In this document: one piece after another, positions 11,909-38,525 of the stretch | How positions within the stretch are numbered: position 1 is the first letter of the stretch | Layout of the letters: each line of letters opens with the position of its first letter | Assembly: GCA_028753945.1 (NCBI GenBank) | Contig: JAPNXP010000014.1 | Span: forward strand, 434,001-498,000 | Reading direction: 5' to 3' | Source: Hexactinellida sp. DTS-2022 | Lineage: Eukaryota > Porifera > Hexactinellida | Length of the DNA: 64,000 nt | The notes under the pieces: model-generated | Seen by the model: the letters and a program-made list of their open reading frames with translations, nothing else | Database searches by the model: none | Told to the model about the DNA's origin: nothing | Program-made: the position numbers and the translations under genes

Positions 11909-14891
11909 ATGCCAGAAGATTCAACAAAAAACCCGAAAAAAGAAGATTTAATAAAACTTATAAAAACGTCACCAAAAGACATTACTCCTTTTCTACAAAT
12001 ATACACAGTATGTGGTGGACTATGGATAAAGGAAACTCAACAAGAATCTAATAATAGGAACATACCAGCTAATCAGAAGTTCCTTATAAACACAAATAAC
12101 GGACGGAATAAAGTTGGAAATTTCTATCTTAAAACAAACATTGCATATCCTTCTACACATAAATGCATTGGAATACAATTTGTATTGTTCTCTATTAGTG
12201 TAAGTTTAATTGTGTTAATAATAGAGAGACTTTATAATAAGCGAACTCAACTTGATACAAACCCTATGTAAGTTGTTAATTTGGGACCATAGGGCTTGTT
12301 CATAATAAAAAACTTAGTATTAAGCAGACGAATATTGTTCATAATAAGCAGACCTGACTGTATTATGAACAAGCCCTATGGTCCCAATTTAACAACTTAC
12401 ATAAGGTTTGTATTAAGTTGAGTTCGCTTATTATAAAAGTATCTCTATTATGAACACAATTTGTAGTTCCTTGAATATTCAACATTACTGTATAAATTAA
12501 GCCCTTTATTCTAATACAGTAGACTCGTTAATACGAACACCGTCTTAATATGTTCATATTATCTGGAATTTGTATTAACCGGAGTCACTTGTATGCATTT
12601 GTATAGGCTAGGGGAATTAAACCTTGTACTCCTTAACCGATATTTCCCTTATCCGTGTTCCTATTAACGAGTTTACTTAAGTTACTAATACTCAATCAAA
12701 CTGTATACTGAAATCATTTTACACACACATATTATATTACGAACTAAATTTGTAGGTAAACAATCAGAAACTGAGTGAGAGAGAGAGGGAGGCCTGTACA
12801 CATCTGTATGAGAGAGCTAATGGGATATTGGCACCCTATGCTGGAGTACGAGCCAAGTTCATTATGGACACAATTAAATGTAATACCAATTGATAAATAG
12901 CATAGATAATAGATATATACCAAGCCATTAATGACACAATAAAATGTAATAACAATTGATTAATAGCATAGATAATAGATATATACCAAGCCATTAATGA
13001 CACAATAAAATGTAATAATAATTGATTAATAGCATAGATAATAGATATATACCAAGCCATTAATGACACAATACAATGTAATACCAATTGATTAATAGTA
13101 TAGATAATAGATATATACCAAGCCATTAATGACACAATAAAATGTAATAATAATTGATTAATAGCATAGATAATAGATATATACCAAGCCATTAATGACA
13201 CAATACAATGTAATACCAATTGATTAATAGTATAGATAATAGATATATACCAAGCCATTAATGACACAATAAAATGTAATAGTAATTGATTAATAGCATA
13301 GATAATAGATATATACCAAGCCATTAATGACACAATAAAATGTAATAATAATTGATTAATAGCATAGATAATAGATATATACCAAGCCATTAATGACACA
13401 ATACAATGTAATACCAATTGATTAATAGCATAGATAATAGATATATACCAAGCCATTAATGACACAATAAAATGTAATAATAATTGATTAATAGCATAGA
13501 TAATAGATATATACCAAGCCATTAATGACACAATACAATGTAATACCAATTGATTAATAGTATAGATAATAGATATATACCAAGCCATTAATGACACAAT
13601 AAAATGTAATAATAATTGATTAATAGTATAGATAATAGATATATACCAAGCCATTAATGACACAATAAAATGTAATAGTAATTGATAAATAGCATAGATA
13701 ATAGATATATACCAAGCCATTAATGACACAATAAAATGTAATAATAATTGATTAATAGCATAGATAATAGATATATACCAAGCCATTAATGACACAATAC
13801 AATGTAATACCAATTGATTAATAGTATAGATAATAGATATATACCAAGCCATTAATGACACAATAAAATGTAATAATAATTGATTAATAATGCAATTTGT
13901 TATTAGCTTATTACCCTAACACTACTGTAATTACTTGAATTGTTATCAAATGTGAAATACTTTAGAACCTCGTTAATACGAACACCAACGGACGGTCAAA
14001 ATTTGCATATTTGTTTCATTTATCCTGAGTTCGTATTAACCGGAGTAATACCAATTGAATAGCCATTGTAGGGACCTTATTAAGTGGAACAGTTTGTTCG
14101 TCTTATCCGGAAATTCGTATTAACCGTGTTCCTACTAACGAGGTTCTACTGTACAATTGTTATCAAATGTAAAAATATTTATATTTTGTATTTATAGCAA
14201 GCGAAAATAGAAATTCAGAGGAGAGTATTTTCTCAAAGAAGTTTGATAGAATAACTCATTTAACGACGCCTAACAACAGTTTTCTGTTCAGCAAAATAGG
14301 AGAAATTCTTAAACTTGTCAGGAATTCGTACAGTAACCTAGATTCAAAAGGTGAGTTATTTGTATTGTAAAGAATCATGAATTGTTAACAAAATAATTTG
14401 TTTATAAGGGCTGTTAAAAGGTTGTATAACGCAAAAACTAGGGGAATTATACACACACTCTTAATTAAATCTTGCTTTTGCAATCCAAAAAGGATTCTAG
14501 GGAAATTAGAAAAAAATTAGAAAAAAATTCTAGGGAAATTTGTAAAAGGATGGTTTGTAACACTTTGTTTGAGCCCCCTTTGGAAGCGTTACGTAACGTT
14601 TTAACGGCCCCTTATTATTATTAAAATCCGATTTTAGATTTAATGAGAAGAACTAAAGTTTCCTTTGAAAATCATTTAAATTTCCATTATGAAAACCTGA
14701 AAAATTTTCATCCAATCGATTTAACAAAACAAGTAAGTTAGTTTGTTGTAGTATCTTTATTTGAAATTATTAGACCTAAAAACGAATTTTTTCCAGTTGA
14801 GAAACATTTTAATATTATTAAATTTGTTTTTTTTTAGACTCTAAAATTCATCATAAAGACTATTCAAGATATTGTCAATAAGAAGGAATAA
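11909..14891 (+). CDS. Unrecognised five-exon gene, 174 residues
   Basis: Exons 11909-12007, 12756-12879, 14198-14350, 14638-14732 and 14838-14891 join with consistent phases (525 nt including stop). Donors are GTATGT, GTAATA, GTGAGT and GTAAGT; all acceptors end TAG. The protein is hydrophilic and probably mostly helical, with no signal peptide or membrane segment. Visible landmarks are KLSEREREACTHLYERANG in exon 2 and LFSKIGEILKLVRNSY in exon 3. I do not recognise the family. The consistent splicing over five exons argues that it is a real gene. The frame running past exon 1 to 12271 is intron sequence containing a D element. A 66-bp minisatellite occupies intron 2. Confidence 0.7.
12190..12492. 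mobile_element. Two family D elements, inverted and tail-to-tail
   Basis: The first copy ends 'aagcagacctgactgta' and is followed directly by an inverted copy beginning 'ttatgaacaagccctatgg'. Together they make a palindrome of about 300 bp in intron 1 of the unrecognised gene. Confidence 0.75.
12514..12675. mobile_element. MITE family A
   Basis: Begins TACAGTAGACTCGTTAATACG; the right end is degenerate ('cctattaacgagtttac'). Confidence 0.75.
12845..13890. repeat. 66-bp minisatellite, about 15.5 copies
   Basis: The unit ends each cycle with 'ataccaagccattaatgac'. The period is divisible by three, so an artefactual 341-codon minus-strand ORF with a 22-residue repeat results. The first unit overlaps the 3' end of exon 2 (12756-12879) and its donor AAAT|GTAATA, so each unit repeats a near copy of the donor. 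Confidence 0.95.
13961..14153. mobile_element. MITE family A
   Basis: From 'tttagaacctcgttaatacg' to 'aacgaggttctactgta'; follows the minisatellite in the same intron. Confidence 0.8.
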
Positions 14892-17299: not shown

Positions 17300-20200
17300 C
17301 TACACAAAGTTCCTTAAACTAATTAGGTGGGTATTAATATATCCGACAATAGTTTGTGATATATTAGAAGGACTTGGATCGGCGAATATTAAACAAGTCA
17401 GTCCACTTTGAATCGGGATAACAACAAGTAATCCAAAACAATTTACGTTTGAAAACTTTTCAGTTCCACCGGTTTCTACAATATCAACTTCACCACTCCA
17501 TTTAATACCCGGACATAATGCCGCGAGGGTAACTTGTCTCGGCGAAAACTGTCGCGAACCAAAAGACTTCTTATCGATATCTCGAATTGTAATTCCACTT
17601 TTCGCAGACACCTTTATTTCGACTAGAATCGAAAGTGATTTTATAGCAGTGCTTAGTTTAACTGCTACCTCCTCCATTTGTACTTTGGTGCCTTTCCCAG
17701 CTATACTTAGTCCCCCTAAATAAACTGCTTTTGCAGATATTTCAATATTCTTCAATTCACCCCTAGGTGAGGGTTCAGGTGGTTCACCTTTGCCTATTCT
17801 TAATCTACATGGCAACGCCATTGGTTCACTGCTATGCTGAATAACAAACGTAGTTAGGTTGTCAAACGGTGGCTCTTCCCAACCTTGTAGCCGAATTCCG
17901 CGATGATGCGGAGCGATTAAAAAGTGACGAACACAATCTTCTGGGTTCCTTGGAAGAGGTTCACCTGTGTCTTGACTTTTCTGTAGAACGAAACTATCCG
18001 GTACTTTTAGTGATAAAGCATACCCACCCATAACCGTTTGACTGTCTCTTATAACAAATGAACCAACTGGTAAAGGGATTAATTCACGAACGGATGCCTC
18101 TCTTGTTATAGTCGATTTATACCAATCTTCAATTGAATCTGATACGAGACGGGTTTTCTTTTCTTGTAGCTTTCGTAGTAAACTTAATGTTTCTTCATCG
18201 TTTTTATAATCGTTGTCTTTTATTATTCGTTTTTTACCAGATTTTCCTTCCCAATCCATTTGATCAATTTCAAGACATTTCTGAATTCCTTCTAAATTCA
18301 AGCCTTCGAGTGTTGTATCTGTTAAAGTATTGCTACGACCTTTATCAGGGATTTTACAGATAATTATGTCATCGAAATTAATTCGTATTTCTTTCTGTGA
18401 ATTTTCGCGAGACACGGCATCCTCCGCATCGATACTAGAACGGGTTGATGGAATGCGATCGATTTTCTCGACTTTCCTTTTACTTCTACTTCGGTATTCT
18501 TTAACTGTTCTGTTTATAAACGCTACGCTATGTGCTGAGGTTCGAGCCTCGGTATTTGCAAAAACGCTTTTTTCAGGATCACCGGGCAAATCGTCCCCTC
18601 TATAGGGGACAACTTCGGGTGGAGTACCAAATGTGGAATCGGTTTCATTTCGTTTTCTGTGAGGAATCGCGATTTCAACCGGTAAAGACTTCTTGTTATA
18701 ATCAACCGGTGTATAAGTTGACATTTTAAACAATTCTTCTTGGGTAAGTTCGCTGAATTTCCTTAAATCTTCGCTATCAGGAACCAACGGGTTGAAATCC
18801 GGTCTAAAATTACTGTACGTGTCCGATTTTAAGCTAGAAGATACCGCTTCTTCGGTTAGGATTGTTATTGGACTTATGCTTACTGTTCTCCTTGAAGTGA
18901 CTTGGTTTGAAAACAATAATTCTACAATTCCATCATTTGGATAACGTTTGTCTTTCCATGCATCGTCCAATTCGTTTTTATCGAAAACAAGTTGCTCGGT
19001 TTCGATTACGTAACTAGGGAATTGTACGCGAAATATGCAATCTCTTTTACCGGGCACACTTTTCTTGTTATAACATTTGATTAAAACGTCGCCCAATAAT
19101 TGAAGCCCGGGGGAAAGTGGGATTTTTAAAACACCCAAATTATGAGTTGCTTCATAAACAGGTGTTGTGTATAACGGTTTTAAATTCTGATAGAATTTAA
19201 AATATACTTTACAACCACCTTTTCCATCGCAATTCGGAATGCCTTGTAAAGTTATCCGTGTAATTACAACCGGTCGATTATGTGCTATTAACTGTCCGGC
19301 TAATAAATCTGCAAAATAATACACATACCTACGTTGTGAGGGTTGATTAACGCCATGTTTTTGATTGAAGAATCTTTGCATCGCGAATTTATCAAGGGCG
19401 GATTCGGGAGTATTACAAATGCTACTGTAATGCAGATACGCGGCGATAACAACACCAGTTCTACCTTTTCCACCCACGCAATGTACAACTGCTACATGTC
19501 GAGAATCCGAATCCAGCCAAGATGAAATAGATTTACAAATACTACACAAACGGTCTAAAGAAGGTGCCAAATGGTCCGGCCAACCAAAATCTAAAACTTG
19601 ATTATTGAGTTTAGAAATGTCATAACGTCGCTCGCTTAAGTTGAATACTAAGTAGTTTTCGCCGTGTTTGTTCATTAGCATTTTCGCTACATCTCTAAGA
19701 CAATTTCTATAAACGGATTCAACTCCAGTGGCTGGAAAAGACATGGCTATTATTCTCTCGGTTATATAAGTTAGATCTAAATCGAAACCTTCTTCCGTAT
19801 AGCGGTCAGTTCGCTTCGATAAAACACGTTTTATGATTCCTGTTAGTCCTAATTTTTCACGTTTTTCACGGAAACTAAAGTCCTTTCCTTCATACAAACG
19901 CATGTCTTCTTGAATGGTTATTTTCCGCTCGCAATCACCGATTTCAGTTAGGCATTTAGGGTGACAAGCCATATTACACGATACACAAATGTAACAGACA
20001 GAAAATATAATATTTTCACAAACCAGGCACATACCAGGACGATGTAAATTTGCCGGTTCGACTGTATGTCCGTTCGTGTTCTCTAGTACGGCGAAATCAA
20101 CTAATTCAGTTGGATTATAATTCAAATCTATATGAGTTACTTGTTCATCATCACTTTGTGTTCGTTTTTTTTCGGGTGAACGTATCGGTGAACTTGGCAA

Positions 20201-20320
20201 AACGTGTTCTGACATGTAATGTTCTTGTAAAGGGTCTGGGGTAGCGAATTCTTGATGACACTCGGGGCAAATAAAACCCTCCCTTACACTAGTAATATCA
20301 AAATCTTCTAATTGAGCCAT
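17300..20320 (-). CDS. Tensin with N-terminal EEA1-like C2H2 zinc finger, C1, PTP-C2, SH2 and PTB domains
   Basis: Intronless, 1006 residues. Residues 15-39 (EGFICPEC ... LQEHYMSEH; C18, C21, H34, H39) match the EEA1/Rabenosyn-5 Rab5-binding zinc finger. A C1-like domain follows (H93 to C130). The PTEN-like phosphatase domain (about 175-345) has HCVGGKGRTG with Cys281 and Arg287 intact, unlike catalytically dead vertebrate tensins 1 and 3. The C2 domain runs to about 490. After a low-complexity linker come SH2 (about 732-842, FVIRDS with the phosphotyrosine Arg) and the PTB domain (about 862-1000, AVYLGGLS). Known tensins bridge integrin tails, actin and phosphotyrosine proteins at adhesions. 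The C1 domain suggests TNS2-like architecture; the zinc finger is extra. The start is the first ATG, shortly after a stop. Confidence 0.92.
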   Translation of the reverse strand: MAQLEDFDITSVREGFICPECHQEFATPDPLQEHYMSEHVLPSSPIRSPEKKRTQSDDEQVTHIDLNYNPTELVDFAVLENTNGHTVEPANLHRPGMCLVCENIIFSVCYICVSCNMACHPKCLTEIGDCERKITIQEDMRLYEGKDFSFREKREKLGLTGIIKRVLSKRTDRYTEEGFDLDLTYITERIIAMSFPATGVESVYRNCLRDVAKMLMNKHGENYLVFNLSERRYDISKLNNQVLDFGWPDHLAPSLDRLCSICKSISSWLDSDSRHVAVVHCVGGKGRTGVVIAAYLHYSSICNTPESALDKFAMQRFFNQKHGVNQPSQRRYVYYFADLLAGQLIAHNRPVVITRITLQGIPNCDGKGGCKVYFKFYQNLKPLYTTPVYEATHNLGVLKIPLSPGLQLLGDVLIKCYNKKSVPGKRDCIFRVQFPSYVIETEQLVFDKNELDDAWKDKRYPNDGIVELLFSNQVTSRRTVSISPITILTEEAVSSSLKSDTYSNFRPDFNPLVPDSEDLRKFSELTQEELFKMSTYTPVDYNKKSLPVEIAIPHRKRNETDSTFGTPPEVVPYRGDDLPGDPEKSVFANTEARTSAHSVAFINRTVKEYRSRSKRKVEKIDRIPSTRSSIDAEDAVSRENSQKEIRINFDDIIICKIPDKGRSNTLTDTTLEGLNLEGIQKCLEIDQMDWEGKSGKKRIIKDNDYKNDEETLSLLRKLQEKKTRLVSDSIEDWYKSTITREASVRELIPLPVGSFVIRDSQTVMGGYALSLKVPDSFVLQKSQDTGEPLPRNPEDCVRHFLIAPHHRGIRLQGWEEPPFDNLTTFVIQHSSEPMALPCRLRIGKGEPPEPSPRGELKNIEISAKAVYLGGLSIAGKGTKVQMEEVAVKLSTAIKSLSILVEIKVSAKSGITIRDIDKKSFGSRQFSPRQVTLAALCPGIKWSGEVDIVETGGTEKFSNVNCFGLLVVIPIQSGLTCLIFADPSPSNISQTIVGYINTHLISLRNFV

Positions 20321-21276: not shown

Positions 21277-21936
21277 ATGCGGAAACAAACTTCAGTTATT
21301 AGTGGCGGTATAGGAGAACGTACCCCTTTTTATGGGTTCCAAATTCCACAAGAAATAAAGTCATTTTTCACGATTAAAAAGGCGCTAGAATTGGATAAAC
21401 CTGCCTGGAAAAATATTCTAACTTTCGTGAATTTATATTTACAAAATCAAGATTTTGACAATGATAAATTCAACGAACTCCAGTCTACAATTCCTTTAAC
21501 CGAAGACGAATTAAAAGGTGTTATTTCTGCTATAATAATGATAGCTAGATGTGTGTTTAAAAACCCGATTATTAGACAAGAACATTTTGAAGAAGATCTA
21601 AGAAATTTGAAAATTCCAGACAATTGCATCTCGATTCTAAACAAAATGTTATTCGGTCCAAACCGTACAATTATCGACAGTAGTATTGTGAATTCCAGAG
21701 TGTCTCTTCCTAGATACCTAGCCTTTAAATGGCGCGTTGATGTAACTATTTCTAACACCTTTTTACAGCGAGCTCTCACACCAACTGTATTAGGCGAATT
21801 GTTGTTAGCAAACGGAAAATCGGCCTTATTTGAAATGTCGATTGAAAAATTTCACGAATTGAGGTTTAACGTTGCGTTAGTATTAAGGGATATGGGAGAA
21901 ATTGAGAGCCAACATAACGCATTGAAAATTGCATAG
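21277..21936 (+). CDS. COMMD5: COMM domain-containing protein 5
   Basis: Intronless, 219 residues, close to human COMMD5 (224). The C-terminal COMM domain shows AFKWRVDVTISNTFLQRAL, LTPTVLGELLLANG, SALFEMSIEKFHELRF and NVALVLRDM, aligning with human FRWRVDVAIS, LQPSVLMQLKL, FEVPTAKFQELRYSVALVLKEM. The N-terminal part is the helical HN domain. COMMD5 belongs to the Commander complex (with CCDC22/CCDC93 and Retriever), which recycles cargo from endosomes, and it also modulates NF-kB. The ATG follows the end of a family O MITE by about eight bases, so the transcript start probably lies within that element. Confidence 0.92.
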   Translation: MRKQTSVISGGIGERTPFYGFQIPQEIKSFFTIKKALELDKPAWKNILTFVNLYLQNQDFDNDKFNELQSTIPLTEDELKGVISAIIMIARCVFKNPIIRQEHFEEDLRNLKIPDNCISILNKMLFGPNRTIIDSSIVNSRVSLPRYLAFKWRVDVTISNTFLQRALTPTVLGELLLANGKSALFEMSIEKFHELRFNVALVLRDMGEIESQHNALKIA

Positions 21937-34840: not shown

Positions 34841-36688
34841 TTACTCGGTGTTGACTTCCCAAAATAATTTTCGTTTTCGGATAACTAAATCGTAGCATTC
34901 AACTTTATCTGTTAATTCATACACAGCTGTATAAGGAAACCGAACTTCGAATTCTGTGTTTTTACCAATTTCCGTCTGTTTACACTCAAACTCTTTTGGT
35001 TGGCCATCATACTTGGTATTTCCGTTTGGAGTGAAAACGCGAAATTTAAAATTTTTGTTAAATGTACCTTCAATTACTTTACATTTCAAAGGCAATCTAA
35101 AATCAAGACTAGAGGGTGTTGATATTATTTCTGCCAAACCAATTCTTTCTTCTAAGTAATCAGGTGGCAGCATTTTGTCTAATTGTTCACTGACATAGTC
35201 AATAATCCTATACACCACATTATGTGTGAAAACTGGTATTGAATAGTGTTGTACCAATGGTTGGGCATCTCTATGTATTCCAACGTTAAAACCTAAAATG
35301 TGAGAATTTATAGCTTGTGCAAGTCTCACGTCTGAAATATTTATATTTCCAATTTTTGAATTTATTATTTCAATTGTTAAATATTCTGGAGAAGTCGAAG
35401 TAAGTATTTTTTCAATCGCTTCTTTGGAGCCTTCTGTATCCGATTTTAAAATCAGGCAGAGTGTTCTACTATCCCCTTTTATTTGGCGAACTTTTGGGAC
35501 ATTGTTTTCTACAGGTATTTCCTTTAGAGCTATTTGTTTCATTTTTTTACGTTTACTTTTATTTTCTTCCAACAACCATAAACTGTCTAAATCTTTTATC
35601 ATTCTTTTGGCATCCTTTACCTTTCTGATGCTAATGAATTTCAACCCCGGATTTGGAAGTCCCTTTTTCCACCCAGCAATTGTACAAGGATATCCAGGAG
35701 CTATTTCTTCAACTCTAAGCCCAGATGGTAATTCTATATTTTTGACTCTACAGAAAGTTTTTCCCGATGAGATGATTAAACCTCGAGTTACAGTTCCACG
35801 TAAGGGAAGTATGGTAGCTAAATCTCCCAAATGTCTGCTTTTACTTGTTTCTAATACAAAACCGAAAGCATTCCCATTTGTATCTGCCTCCAAAGATATT
35901 TTGTCCGATTCTAAAAGTAAAATACGCATTAATTTATCTAAGTTATAGCGTTTTAAAGCGGATATTTCAATTGAAGGAATATTCCCATTAAATTTAATTA
36001 ATTCCAATCCATTTTCGTGAATTTCTTCCTCAGTTTTCGCAATATTTGCCTCTTCTTTATCAATTTTATTCAACGCAACAACACAAGGCAAATTGTAATT
36101 ATGTATTAACTGAATCACTTCTCTCGTTTGTGGTTGTACCCCCTCACAACAATCAACAACTAACACAGTGATGTCATTAATTTTAGCACCCCTTCCCCTA
36201 ATACCTGCAAAAGCGGCATGGCCAGGTGTATCAATAAATGTTACGTCACGACCTTCGAAATTAACAACAAAAGAAGAGACATGTTGTGTTATCATTCCTG
36301 GTTCGTTTTCAGCTACATTTGTGTTGCGAAGTGAATCGAGAAGTGTGGTTTTCCCATGGTCAACATGACCCATGACTGAAATAATCGGTGGTCGTTTGTT
36401 TGTTATAATAGGGGGAATGGTAGGGTATATGCCTAATTCTTCAGTTACCATTTGTATTTCAGAATGAAATACTTTTGTAGCTAAATTGTATTCACGAATT
36501 TCATTGTTTATGAGGATGGTTAAAACTTTCTTGGGTGAAACGCCGAGTTTTTCTGCTAAATGCAAAACTCTTATGCAAGGTTTGTCGTATAAATCTTTTG
36601 GTTGAGAAACTGGTGTATTGTGGATAGATTTATAAATCCGTTTTTTAAGGAAGTTTCGTGAAATTATCAGAAATGATTTGCGATACAT
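34841..36688 (-). CDS. MTIF2: Mitochondrial translation initiation factor 2, copy 1
   Basis: Intronless, 615 residues. A basic, Ser/Arg/Lys-rich N-terminus looks like a mitochondrial presequence. Residues about 40-90 (VLHLAEKLGVSPKKVLTILI) match the IF2 N-domain. The G domain has GHVDHGKT (107-114), DTPGHAAF, NKID and a later G5 region, followed by domains II, C1 (KSDTEGSKEAIEKIL, HRDAQPLVQHY) and C2. Bacterial-type IF2 is a GTPase that places formyl-Met-tRNA on the small subunit and promotes subunit joining. A paralogue lies 97 bp upstream on the same strand. The roughly 220 bp covering G1-G3 is almost identical to copy 2 while the rest has diverged strongly. Confidence 0.92.
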   Translation of the reverse strand: MYRKSFLIISRNFLKKRIYKSIHNTPVSQPKDLYDKPCIRVLHLAEKLGVSPKKVLTILINNEIREYNLATKVFHSEIQMVTEELGIYPTIPPIITNKRPPIISVMGHVDHGKTTLLDSLRNTNVAENEPGMITQHVSSFVVNFEGRDVTFIDTPGHAAFAGIRGRGAKINDITVLVVDCCEGVQPQTREVIQLIHNYNLPCVVALNKIDKEEANIAKTEEEIHENGLELIKFNGNIPSIEISALKRYNLDKLMRILLLESDKISLEADTNGNAFGFVLETSKSRHLGDLATILPLRGTVTRGLIISSGKTFCRVKNIELPSGLRVEEIAPGYPCTIAGWKKGLPNPGLKFISIRKVKDAKRMIKDLDSLWLLEENKSKRKKMKQIALKEIPVENNVPKVRQIKGDSRTLCLILKSDTEGSKEAIEKILTSTSPEYLTIEIINSKIGNINISDVRLAQAINSHILGFNVGIHRDAQPLVQHYSIPVFTHNVVYRIIDYVSEQLDKMLPPDYLEERIGLAEIISTPSSLDFRLPLKCKVIEGTFNKNFKFRVFTPNGNTKYDGQPKEFECKQTEIGKNTEFEVRFPYTAVYELTDKVECYDLVIRKRKLFWEVNTE

Positions 36689-36785: not shown

Positions 36786-38525
36786 CTACACTGTTTCTAT
36801 TTTATCTGGAGTTGAACTGATATTCCATTCCAAAGATTTCTTTACAGGAAAAGGCTTGTAACAATAAATCTTGTCATCTTCAAAACAATTATCGAAATCT
36901 TCAAAAGAAATCCCAAATTCGTTTCCTTTATCAATTGTTTTAATTTTAGTTTTTTTATGCTGCAATACCCTCGCTTTTCCTTCGAAAACCAAATTGTTTT
37001 TGCGAAAAATCTTGAATTTTCCAGATTTCTCAACTCGACCCGTGGTCACAACGCATCCAGATGCCTGCAATTTATTTGGAATCGCGAATAATTTCAACAC
37101 ATTGGCCTCACCAACTATCCTTTCTTCATAATTCGGATCAAGCTTTGATTCTAACTCTTCTTTCACATAATCTATAATACTATAGACAATATTATGTGTG
37201 AAAACTGGGAGTTTTAAGTTGGTTTTTAAGGTTTTTAATTCCCCTCCTAACTCAATGTTATATCCTATAACATGTGCTCCAATAAAATCAGCATAGATTA
37301 AATCGGATTGTATAATATTTCCAATTCCAGAACGGATTATGGATATATTAACTTCTTTAGGATTCCCACTGTTTAATAGATTTATTAAAGCTTCAAGCGT
37401 CCCAGCCGTGTCAGCTTTGATGATGAGATACAAAGTTTTAGTATCATCAGCGAATTTCCGAATAATATTCATTTTGTCTACTTTTTCTGGATTTTTTCTT
37501 GATCGTGGACTTTGATCGAAATTATCAAATAACTTCATTTGTTGAATATTACGTTTTGCTAGTTTTTCAGAAGAGATTTGTTTGAATATGATACCAGGTT
37601 CAGGTGATTGTTTCCATCCGATTACTTTGAATGGATAGCCAGGTTTTCCTCCGTTTTCGAAAATAGATTTATCAACACCCTCAGTTGGTTGGAAATGTTT
37701 CACTCTACACCATGTTTGTCCAGCTTGTAAAATACTCCCTACTTTTAATAATCCTCTTTCAACAAGAACAGTAGCCACAGTACCCCTGCTAAATTGAGTA
37801 TTAACTTCCAAAATTCGACCTTTCAATTCCAGATCTTCCATAGAGTAAAGTTCAAGCTGATTTGCTAGTTTTAAAATGCAACTTACAAGTTCATCTAAAT
37901 TCAATCGTTTTAGACCGGAAATAGGAACTGACATTGTGTTGCCCCCATACTTTTCCAATTCAATTCCAGCGTCCACCAATTGTTCTTCTGTTTCTTCCAA
38001 TTTTGAGGTATTTCGATCGATTTTATTTAACGCTACAATAGTTGGGATATCGTTTCTCAAAATTAAATCGATTACTTCTTGTGTTTGTGGTTTAATGCCT
38101 TCATTTGTGTCAACAACTAACACTGTGATGTCATTAATTTTAGCACCCCTTCCTCTAATACCTGCAAACGCGGCATGGCCAGGCGTATCAATAAATGTTA
38201 CGTCACGACCTTCGAAATTAACAACAAAAGATGAGACATGTTGTGTTATCATTCCTGGTTCGTTTTCAGCTACATTTGTGTTGCGAAGTGAATCGAGAAG
38301 TGTGGTTTTCCCATGGTCAACATGCCCCATGATTGTGACAATAGGTGGACGTAAGGGATATGAATGTAATTGTATTTTTTCACTTTTTTTGGTAATTTTT
38401 TCGTTAATGTTAATGTCCGTATTTTCTTGTTTAAGTATTGAGTAGTAAATAGGCCGTTTGAAAATATTAATTGGAAATAAATGTAGTTGAGCGAACTTCG
38501 TTGTTTGTATCATTTTGCTAAACAT
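36786..38525 (-). CDS. Mitochondrial translation initiation factor 2, copy 2
   Basis: Intronless, 579 residues. It lacks the IF2 N-domain seen in copy 1: the presequence-like N-terminus leads almost directly to the G domain (GHVDHGKT at 67-74, DTPGHAAF, NKID). The rest follows IF2 order: domain II (FSRGTVATVLVERGLLKVGS), linker, C1 (KADTAGTLEALINLL) and C2. Motifs look intact, so it should be an active GTPase. Animals usually have one MTIF2, so this pair suggests duplication with divergence and later homogenisation of the G-domain core. Which copy keeps the ancestral function is unclear; copy 1 has the fuller domain set. Confidence 0.88.
   Translation of the reverse strand: MFSKMIQTTKFAQLHLFPINIFKRPIYYSILKQENTDININEKITKKSEKIQLHSYPLRPPIVTIMGHVDHGKTTLLDSLRNTNVAENEPGMITQHVSSFVVNFEGRDVTFIDTPGHAAFAGIRGRGAKINDITVLVVDTNEGIKPQTQEVIDLILRNDIPTIVALNKIDRNTSKLEETEEQLVDAGIELEKYGGNTMSVPISGLKRLNLDELVSCILKLANQLELYSMEDLELKGRILEVNTQFSRGTVATVLVERGLLKVGSILQAGQTWCRVKHFQPTEGVDKSIFENGGKPGYPFKVIGWKQSPEPGIIFKQISSEKLAKRNIQQMKLFDNFDQSPRSRKNPEKVDKMNIIRKFADDTKTLYLIIKADTAGTLEALINLLNSGNPKEVNISIIRSGIGNIIQSDLIYADFIGAHVIGYNIELGGELKTLKTNLKLPVFTHNIVYSIIDYVKEELESKLDPNYEERIVGEANVLKLFAIPNKLQASGCVVTTGRVEKSGKFKIFRKNNLVFEGKARVLQHKKTKIKTIDKGNEFGISFEDFDNCFEDDKIYCYKPFPVKKSLEWNISSTPDKIETV

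Follow-up and report, generated by a model that had tools for sequence, protein, structure and literature searches.

The window analysed here, a stretch of 64 000 nucleotides from the hexactinellid sponge Hexactinellida sp. DTS-2022 (contig JAPNXP010000014.1, positions 434 001 to 498 000), encodes a tensin, an adaptor protein of cell adhesion (17300..20320, reverse strand), whose N-terminus bears a C2H2 zinc finger that very probably belongs to the EEA1 kind. Judged from the sequence, we give the combined reading, that this tensin works as a Rab5-family effector by means of its EEA1/Rabenosyn-5-type finger, a probability of roughly 0.55. The original prediction had placed such a finger ahead of a full C1-PTP-C2-SH2-PTB tensin within one uninterrupted open reading frame (ORF). 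Finger and tensin do share one open exon, and the domain order was borne out by Pfam and PDB matches, with the C1 domain falling below the Pfam cut-off.

The finger shares its C-x2-C-x12-H-x4-H spacing with that of EEA1, and it has the (E)GF(I/L)CP start and the aromatic residue after the first histidine that we take to be the motif of EEA1 and Rabenosyn fingers. Searched against PDB, it matched 3mjh_B, a 34-residue EEA1 chain crystallized with Rab5, with 23.2 bits (E 5.7e-4). An AlphaFold model of residues 1–137, made from the single sequence without an alignment, had a mean pLDDT (predicted local distance difference test) of 34.0.

The same genome holds candidate genes for both proteins that carry fingers of this type. 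Searching it with the finger region (44 residues) at E-values up to 10 gave two scored candidates, both reported: the tensin finger itself and a finger at C11:42133-42210 (E 0.012). The latter is followed 2.5 kb downstream, on the same strand, by a FYVE exon whose best match is EEA1 (1joc, 2.3e-26), and the sequence between the two looks by eye like coiled coil. We read finger and FYVE exon as one candidate EEA1 gene with introns, short of a full gene model. A Rabenosyn-5 candidate (L024) was also present. Its finger reads EGYICPHC...HFEEVH, its FYVE domain scored 46.8 bits and its Rbsn domain 25.0 bits, just below the cut-off of 26. The FYVE scan comprised 25 matches, each read with 1.5 kb on either side, so that remoter fingers escape it, as the one of EEA1 itself did.

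Controls for the finger were taken from the same genome, as 123 distinct six-frame 26-mers fitting C-x2-C-x12-H-x3-5-[HC], some of which may not be real fingers, at the 30 loci best matching a generic C2H2 profile (30 of 150 zf-C2H2_4 matches). Similarity was scored with BLOSUM62 over 26 residues with the zinc ligands masked. The tensin finger scored 42 against human EEA1 (12/26 residues identical), 44 against the sponge's own EEA1 and 29 against its own Rabenosyn-5, and not one of the 123 controls reached any of these values, the best reaching 16 with the tensin finger and 21 with human EEA1. The aromatic-aliphatic-CP start was absent from all controls, as was an aromatic residue after the first histidine, and the x4 histidine spacing occurred in five. 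By these comparisons the tensin finger is nearer to EEA1 and Rabenosyn-5 fingers than generic C2H2 fingers are, and the predicted likeness stands with its start moved from residue 15 to residue 14. Against human EEA1 the sponge's own Rabenosyn-5 finger came slightly nearer than the tensin finger (score 44, 14/26 identical), and its own EEA1 finger fell behind both (27, 8/26). Against 3mjh_B the tensin finger ranked first, ahead of the own Rabenosyn-5 (21.6 bits), the own EEA1 (15.7 bits) and one of the two controls nearest to human EEA1 (14.6 bits); small differences in bits mean little here, since query lengths were unequal (60 amino acids for tensin, 503 for Rabenosyn-5 and 61 for the control).

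The remainder of the product identifies it, on its domain matches, as a tensin. The PTP-C2 tandem of the PTEN kind is present, with Y_phosphatase of Pfam scoring 27.3 bits, above its cut-off. Upstream of the P-loop the acid of the WPD motif (D249) is kept; since C281 and R287 of HCVGGKGRTG are kept too, the PTEN-like phosphatase is apparently intact and probably active. In the SH2 domain the FVIRD motif retains R758. The C-terminal 166 amino acids matched five PDB entries at E ≤ 10, all of them tensins (four so named and one KIAA1075, which we take to be TNS2), each match being weak (E 0.27–0.42), and Pfam returned no PTB match for the protein at E ≤ 10. SH2 followed by a tensin PTB at the C-terminus is nonetheless the arrangement of a tensin. 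A C1-like domain before the PTP, which would be a trait of the tensin-2 subtype, is suggested by the zinc-ligand pattern and by PDB C1 domains matching residues 85–130 (best ARHGEF2, 2.5e-4), its C1_1 score of 18.3 bits lying under the Pfam cut-off of 26.5. No FYVE domain was among the 16 Pfam families matched at E ≤ 10, and for this reason neither a FYVE gene merged with a tensin nor EEA1 or Rabenosyn-5 proper was accepted as the identity of the ORF.

None of the 1006 codons is an internal stop, and the TAA directly 5' of the ATG means that the frame cannot extend upstream within the exon. With eight further ORFs from the window as guide, codon usage scored as coding-like from the start (+10.3 bits in frame over the first 40 codons; negative in both other frames), and with the domain matches this led us to reject a random open frame. 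The nearest gene upstream, at 21277, is divergent and encodes a COMM-domain protein, so that the tensin promoter probably lies within the intervening 956 bases.

The genome comprises 112 Mb in 18 contigs. When it was searched with the whole tensin, 16 candidates were scored and 11 of them matched at E ≤ 0.1, namely the gene itself and ten partial matches, all of these within residues 208–376 of the PTP-C2 region (26–44% identity over 36–152 residues). A second full-length tensin was not found in these 112 Mb, a search that a short tensin of SH2 and PTB only could escape, and a division of the role between two full-length genes was rejected as unlikely because the ten other matches are only partial. 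One of them (C6:480022-480240) sits in an ORF of the window encoding a DSPc phosphatase. The PTEN_C2 profile matched the tensin gene and one other place in the genome, on C7. Among viral and prokaryotic contigs no relative of the tensin was confirmed.

If the reading is right, the finger would bind the GTP form of Rab5 or of a near relative (Rab22, for instance), in the way that the EEA1 finger binds Rab5 in its GTP form (PMC7036122; PMC6010109, in the passages available). By its PTB and SH2 domains the tensin would hold integrin beta tails (through NPxF) and phosphotyrosine cargo, which the finger would pass to early endosomes or keep there, and the PTEN-like phosphatase would be brought along with the rest of the protein. 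The tensin would in this way be a coincidence adaptor coupling engaged adhesion receptors to Rab5 membranes.

Candidate partners are encoded in the genome. Forty-seven Ras-family stretches were fetched (L072-L118), and the contact residues could be read by motif in 24, the rest being partial or not fitting. Available passages of PMC6010109 list nine Rab5 residues that touch EEA1; one stretch, L086, keeps all nine, and no other readable stretch keeps more than six. L086 is the sole stretch of Rab5/22-subfamily type among the 24, none of which is plainly Rab5, and its full set of contact residues indicates that a Rab5-like surface is present. A cluster of five Rab ORFs at C12:4752284-4764562 (L112-L116), Rab6-like by eye, includes four with nearly identical C-terminal halves, which suggests recent duplication or conversion. 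For integrin beta there were ten exon-level headpiece matches and four tail matches in the genome. Two tails were fetched, of which L120 shows NPLF and NPIF, motifs of a type bound by PTB domains, and is a possible ligand of the tensin PTB, while L119 did not resolve. On two contigs (C17:1183375-1291473 and C6:3578336-3678571) the headpiece and tail matches share an orientation and are separated by some 100 kb; this spacing looks like giant introns, whereas the tensin and several other genes of the window are long single ORFs.

Several observations weigh against the effector reading, and some of them could be explained if the finger were a generic C2H2 or UBZ-like finger that had come to resemble EEA1 by convergence, and that binds ubiquitin or another protein or only structures the N-terminus. 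We consider this unlikely. A Pfam scan placed generic families first, the 60-residue N-terminus scoring 22.6 bits with zf-C2H2 (cut-off 25.2), 21.4 with zf-C2H2_4 and 16.3 with zf_UBZ (cut-off 25.6), and the full protein 16.5 with zf-C2H2; none of these scores reached its curated cut-off, and the controls described above put the finger nearer to the EEA1 type than to generic fingers. The match spans just 26 residues, a length at which the finger class is loose, as the sponge's own EEA1 and Rabenosyn-5 fingers score only 9 against each other, and 24 of the 123 controls score at least as high against the own EEA1. Further, 3mjh_B came fourth of 66 by whole-sequence E-value, behind three tandem-finger proteins; they outrank it because their E-values sum several fingers, and no single finger of theirs scored above 14.0 bits (such scores cover five of the 66 ranked alignments). 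Set against convergence are the failure of every control to reach the EEA1 scores, or to show either the aromatic-aliphatic-CP start or the aromatic after the first histidine, and the fact that EEA1 was the only other match reported in the genome by the finger region, in a search that missed the Rabenosyn-5 finger and so was not exhaustive. The aspartate that UBZ fingers carry two positions beyond their first zinc-coordinating histidine is missing from the tensin finger (HYMSEH).

Alternatively, the finger may be of the EEA1 type by descent and yet go unused, either because a start or promoter further downstream leaves it out of the main protein or because it has lost the ability to bind a Rab, which we regard as distinctly unlikely. 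In-frame methionines at residues 36, 97 and 140 would, if used as starts, remove the finger, and a human TNS2 isoform without the C1 region has been reported (PMC5122378, in the part available). The finger of the own EEA1 candidate (L030, C11:42045-44925) has itself drifted, to a C2HC form in which the last zinc-binding histidine is a cysteine, whereas the tensin finger is canonical. Also weighing against the effector reading, Met47 of EEA1, which we take to be important for Rab5 binding, is a histidine in the tensin finger. Loss of use sits poorly with coding-like codon usage from the first codons, and the tensin finger is closer to human EEA1 than the sponge's own EEA1 finger is, which suggests continuing constraint. 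There is, lastly, a slim chance that Rab5 is not the partner, and that the finger binds Rab22/31 or Rab21 instead and links the tensin to a neighbouring endosomal compartment. The EEA1 finger also binds Rab22. L086, with the most contact residues, matches Rab31 and Rab22A (168.4 and 168.1 bits) slightly ahead of Rab5B (158.0 bits), and L085 is Rab22/21-like. Available passages of PMC4342575 describe Rab21 binding integrin alpha tails and integrin endocytosis driven by Rab5 or Rab21. Yet L086 keeps nine of nine Rab5 contact residues and L085 six. Two degenerate DNA patterns for the switch regions of a canonical Rab5 had no match in the genome, which weighs against the effector reading; such a gene may be split by introns and have been missed for that reason.

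Should the finger grip Rab5, a single gene would hard-wire a direct connection between the machinery of cell adhesion and early endosomes. As a natural fusion the tensin would be a Rosetta-stone case, from which one would expect tensin and Rab5 effectors to share cargo elsewhere; it also supplies a defined finger for testing. More tentatively, and with the odds somewhat against it, the tensin may itself combine the part of a Rab5 effector with an active PTEN-like phosphatase, reading active integrin or phosphotyrosine receptors, Rab5-GTP and, via C1 and C2, the membrane, and taking the phosphatase to early endosomes; this would open the possibility of a feedback loop on endosomal phosphoinositides. 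The C1 domain is viewed as a late acquisition of TNS2 (PMC12383349, in the passages available); the C1-like domain of this tensin, the one full-length copy that a small genome yielded, bears on that view.

Table 1. Features of the sponge tensin gene, in positions of the window and residues of the product
Feature	Position	Strand	Residues	Details
Tensin ORF	17300..20320	(-)	1006 aa	Complete, single exon; ATG to stop, TAA in frame right before ATG
EEA1/Rabenosyn-type C2H2 finger	20204..20281	(-)	14-39	EGFICPECHQEFATPDPLQEHYMSEH; zinc ligands C18, C21, H34, H39
C1-like domain	19931..20068	(-)	85-130	Ligands H-x12-C-x2-C-x10-C-x2-C-x4-H-x2-C-x6-C
PTEN-like phosphatase domain	19283..19846	(-)	~159-346	PTEN match 7.5e-52 over 159-440
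P-loop HCVGGKGRTG	19454..19483	(-)	280-289	C281 and R287 catalytic, both kept; PTEN alignment
PTEN_C2 domain	18908..19282	(-)	347-471	Pfam 99.2 bits, above cut-off
SH2 domain	17792..18142	(-)	727-843	Tensin-2 SH2 2kno 6.5e-16; Pfam SH2 26.8 bits, above cut-off
Tensin-type PTB	17327..17665	(-)	~886-998	5/5 PDB matches are tensins

Elsewhere the window encodes an Ig-plus-TSP1 protein and a TMEM206 channel. Together with the integrins and the tensin, these are consistent with an animal, or a close relative, as source. Two adjacent reverse-strand ORFs (34841-36688 and 36786-38525), which resemble mitochondrial IF2 by eye, share an identical stretch of 74 amino acids and an identical DNA block of 92 bp at its longest (36276-36367 and 38233-38324), but a global alignment of the two counts 248 identities against 311 mismatches; the pair looks like a tandem duplication with gene conversion. 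A 66-bp tandem repeat at 12860-13889 (15.6 copies, 95% match) yields a 338-residue ORF of a 22-residue unit that is probably spurious.

Compared with known systems, the protein shares with PTEN the PTP-C2 pair and the catalytic D, C and R residues, and differs in its P-loop, HCVGGKGRTG as against HCKAGKGRTG. With Rabenosyn-5 it has in common the N-terminal EGxICPxC...H(F/Y)xxxH finger, whereas Rabenosyn-5 also has FYVE and Rbsn Rab-binding domains, the former lacking from the tensin. EEA1 is built as a long coiled coil and carries its FYVE domain at the C-terminus; 12 of 26 finger residues and the ligand spacing agree with its Rab5-bound finger (3mjh), whereas the tensin has phosphatase, SH2 and PTB domains and no FYVE. 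Tensin-2 (TNS2, C1-TEN) agrees in the order C1-PTP-C2-SH2-PTB (with a C1-like domain here), in the kept PTP cysteine and in the tensin identity of the SH2 and PTB matches in PDB. In the passages available, human tensins are described with PTP, C2, SH2 and PTB domains, with C1 in TNS2 only and without a finger (PMC10305691; PMC12383349), and are drawn without an N-terminal C2H2 finger (PMC10305691), whereas here one precedes C1. Among the open-access tensin papers listed as matches, titles and abstract openings named no tensin with an EEA1-type finger, and the passages available held no direct contact between tensin and Rab5. Within that literature, the union of a putative EEA1-type finger with a tensin appears to give a known family a combination of domains not seen in it before.

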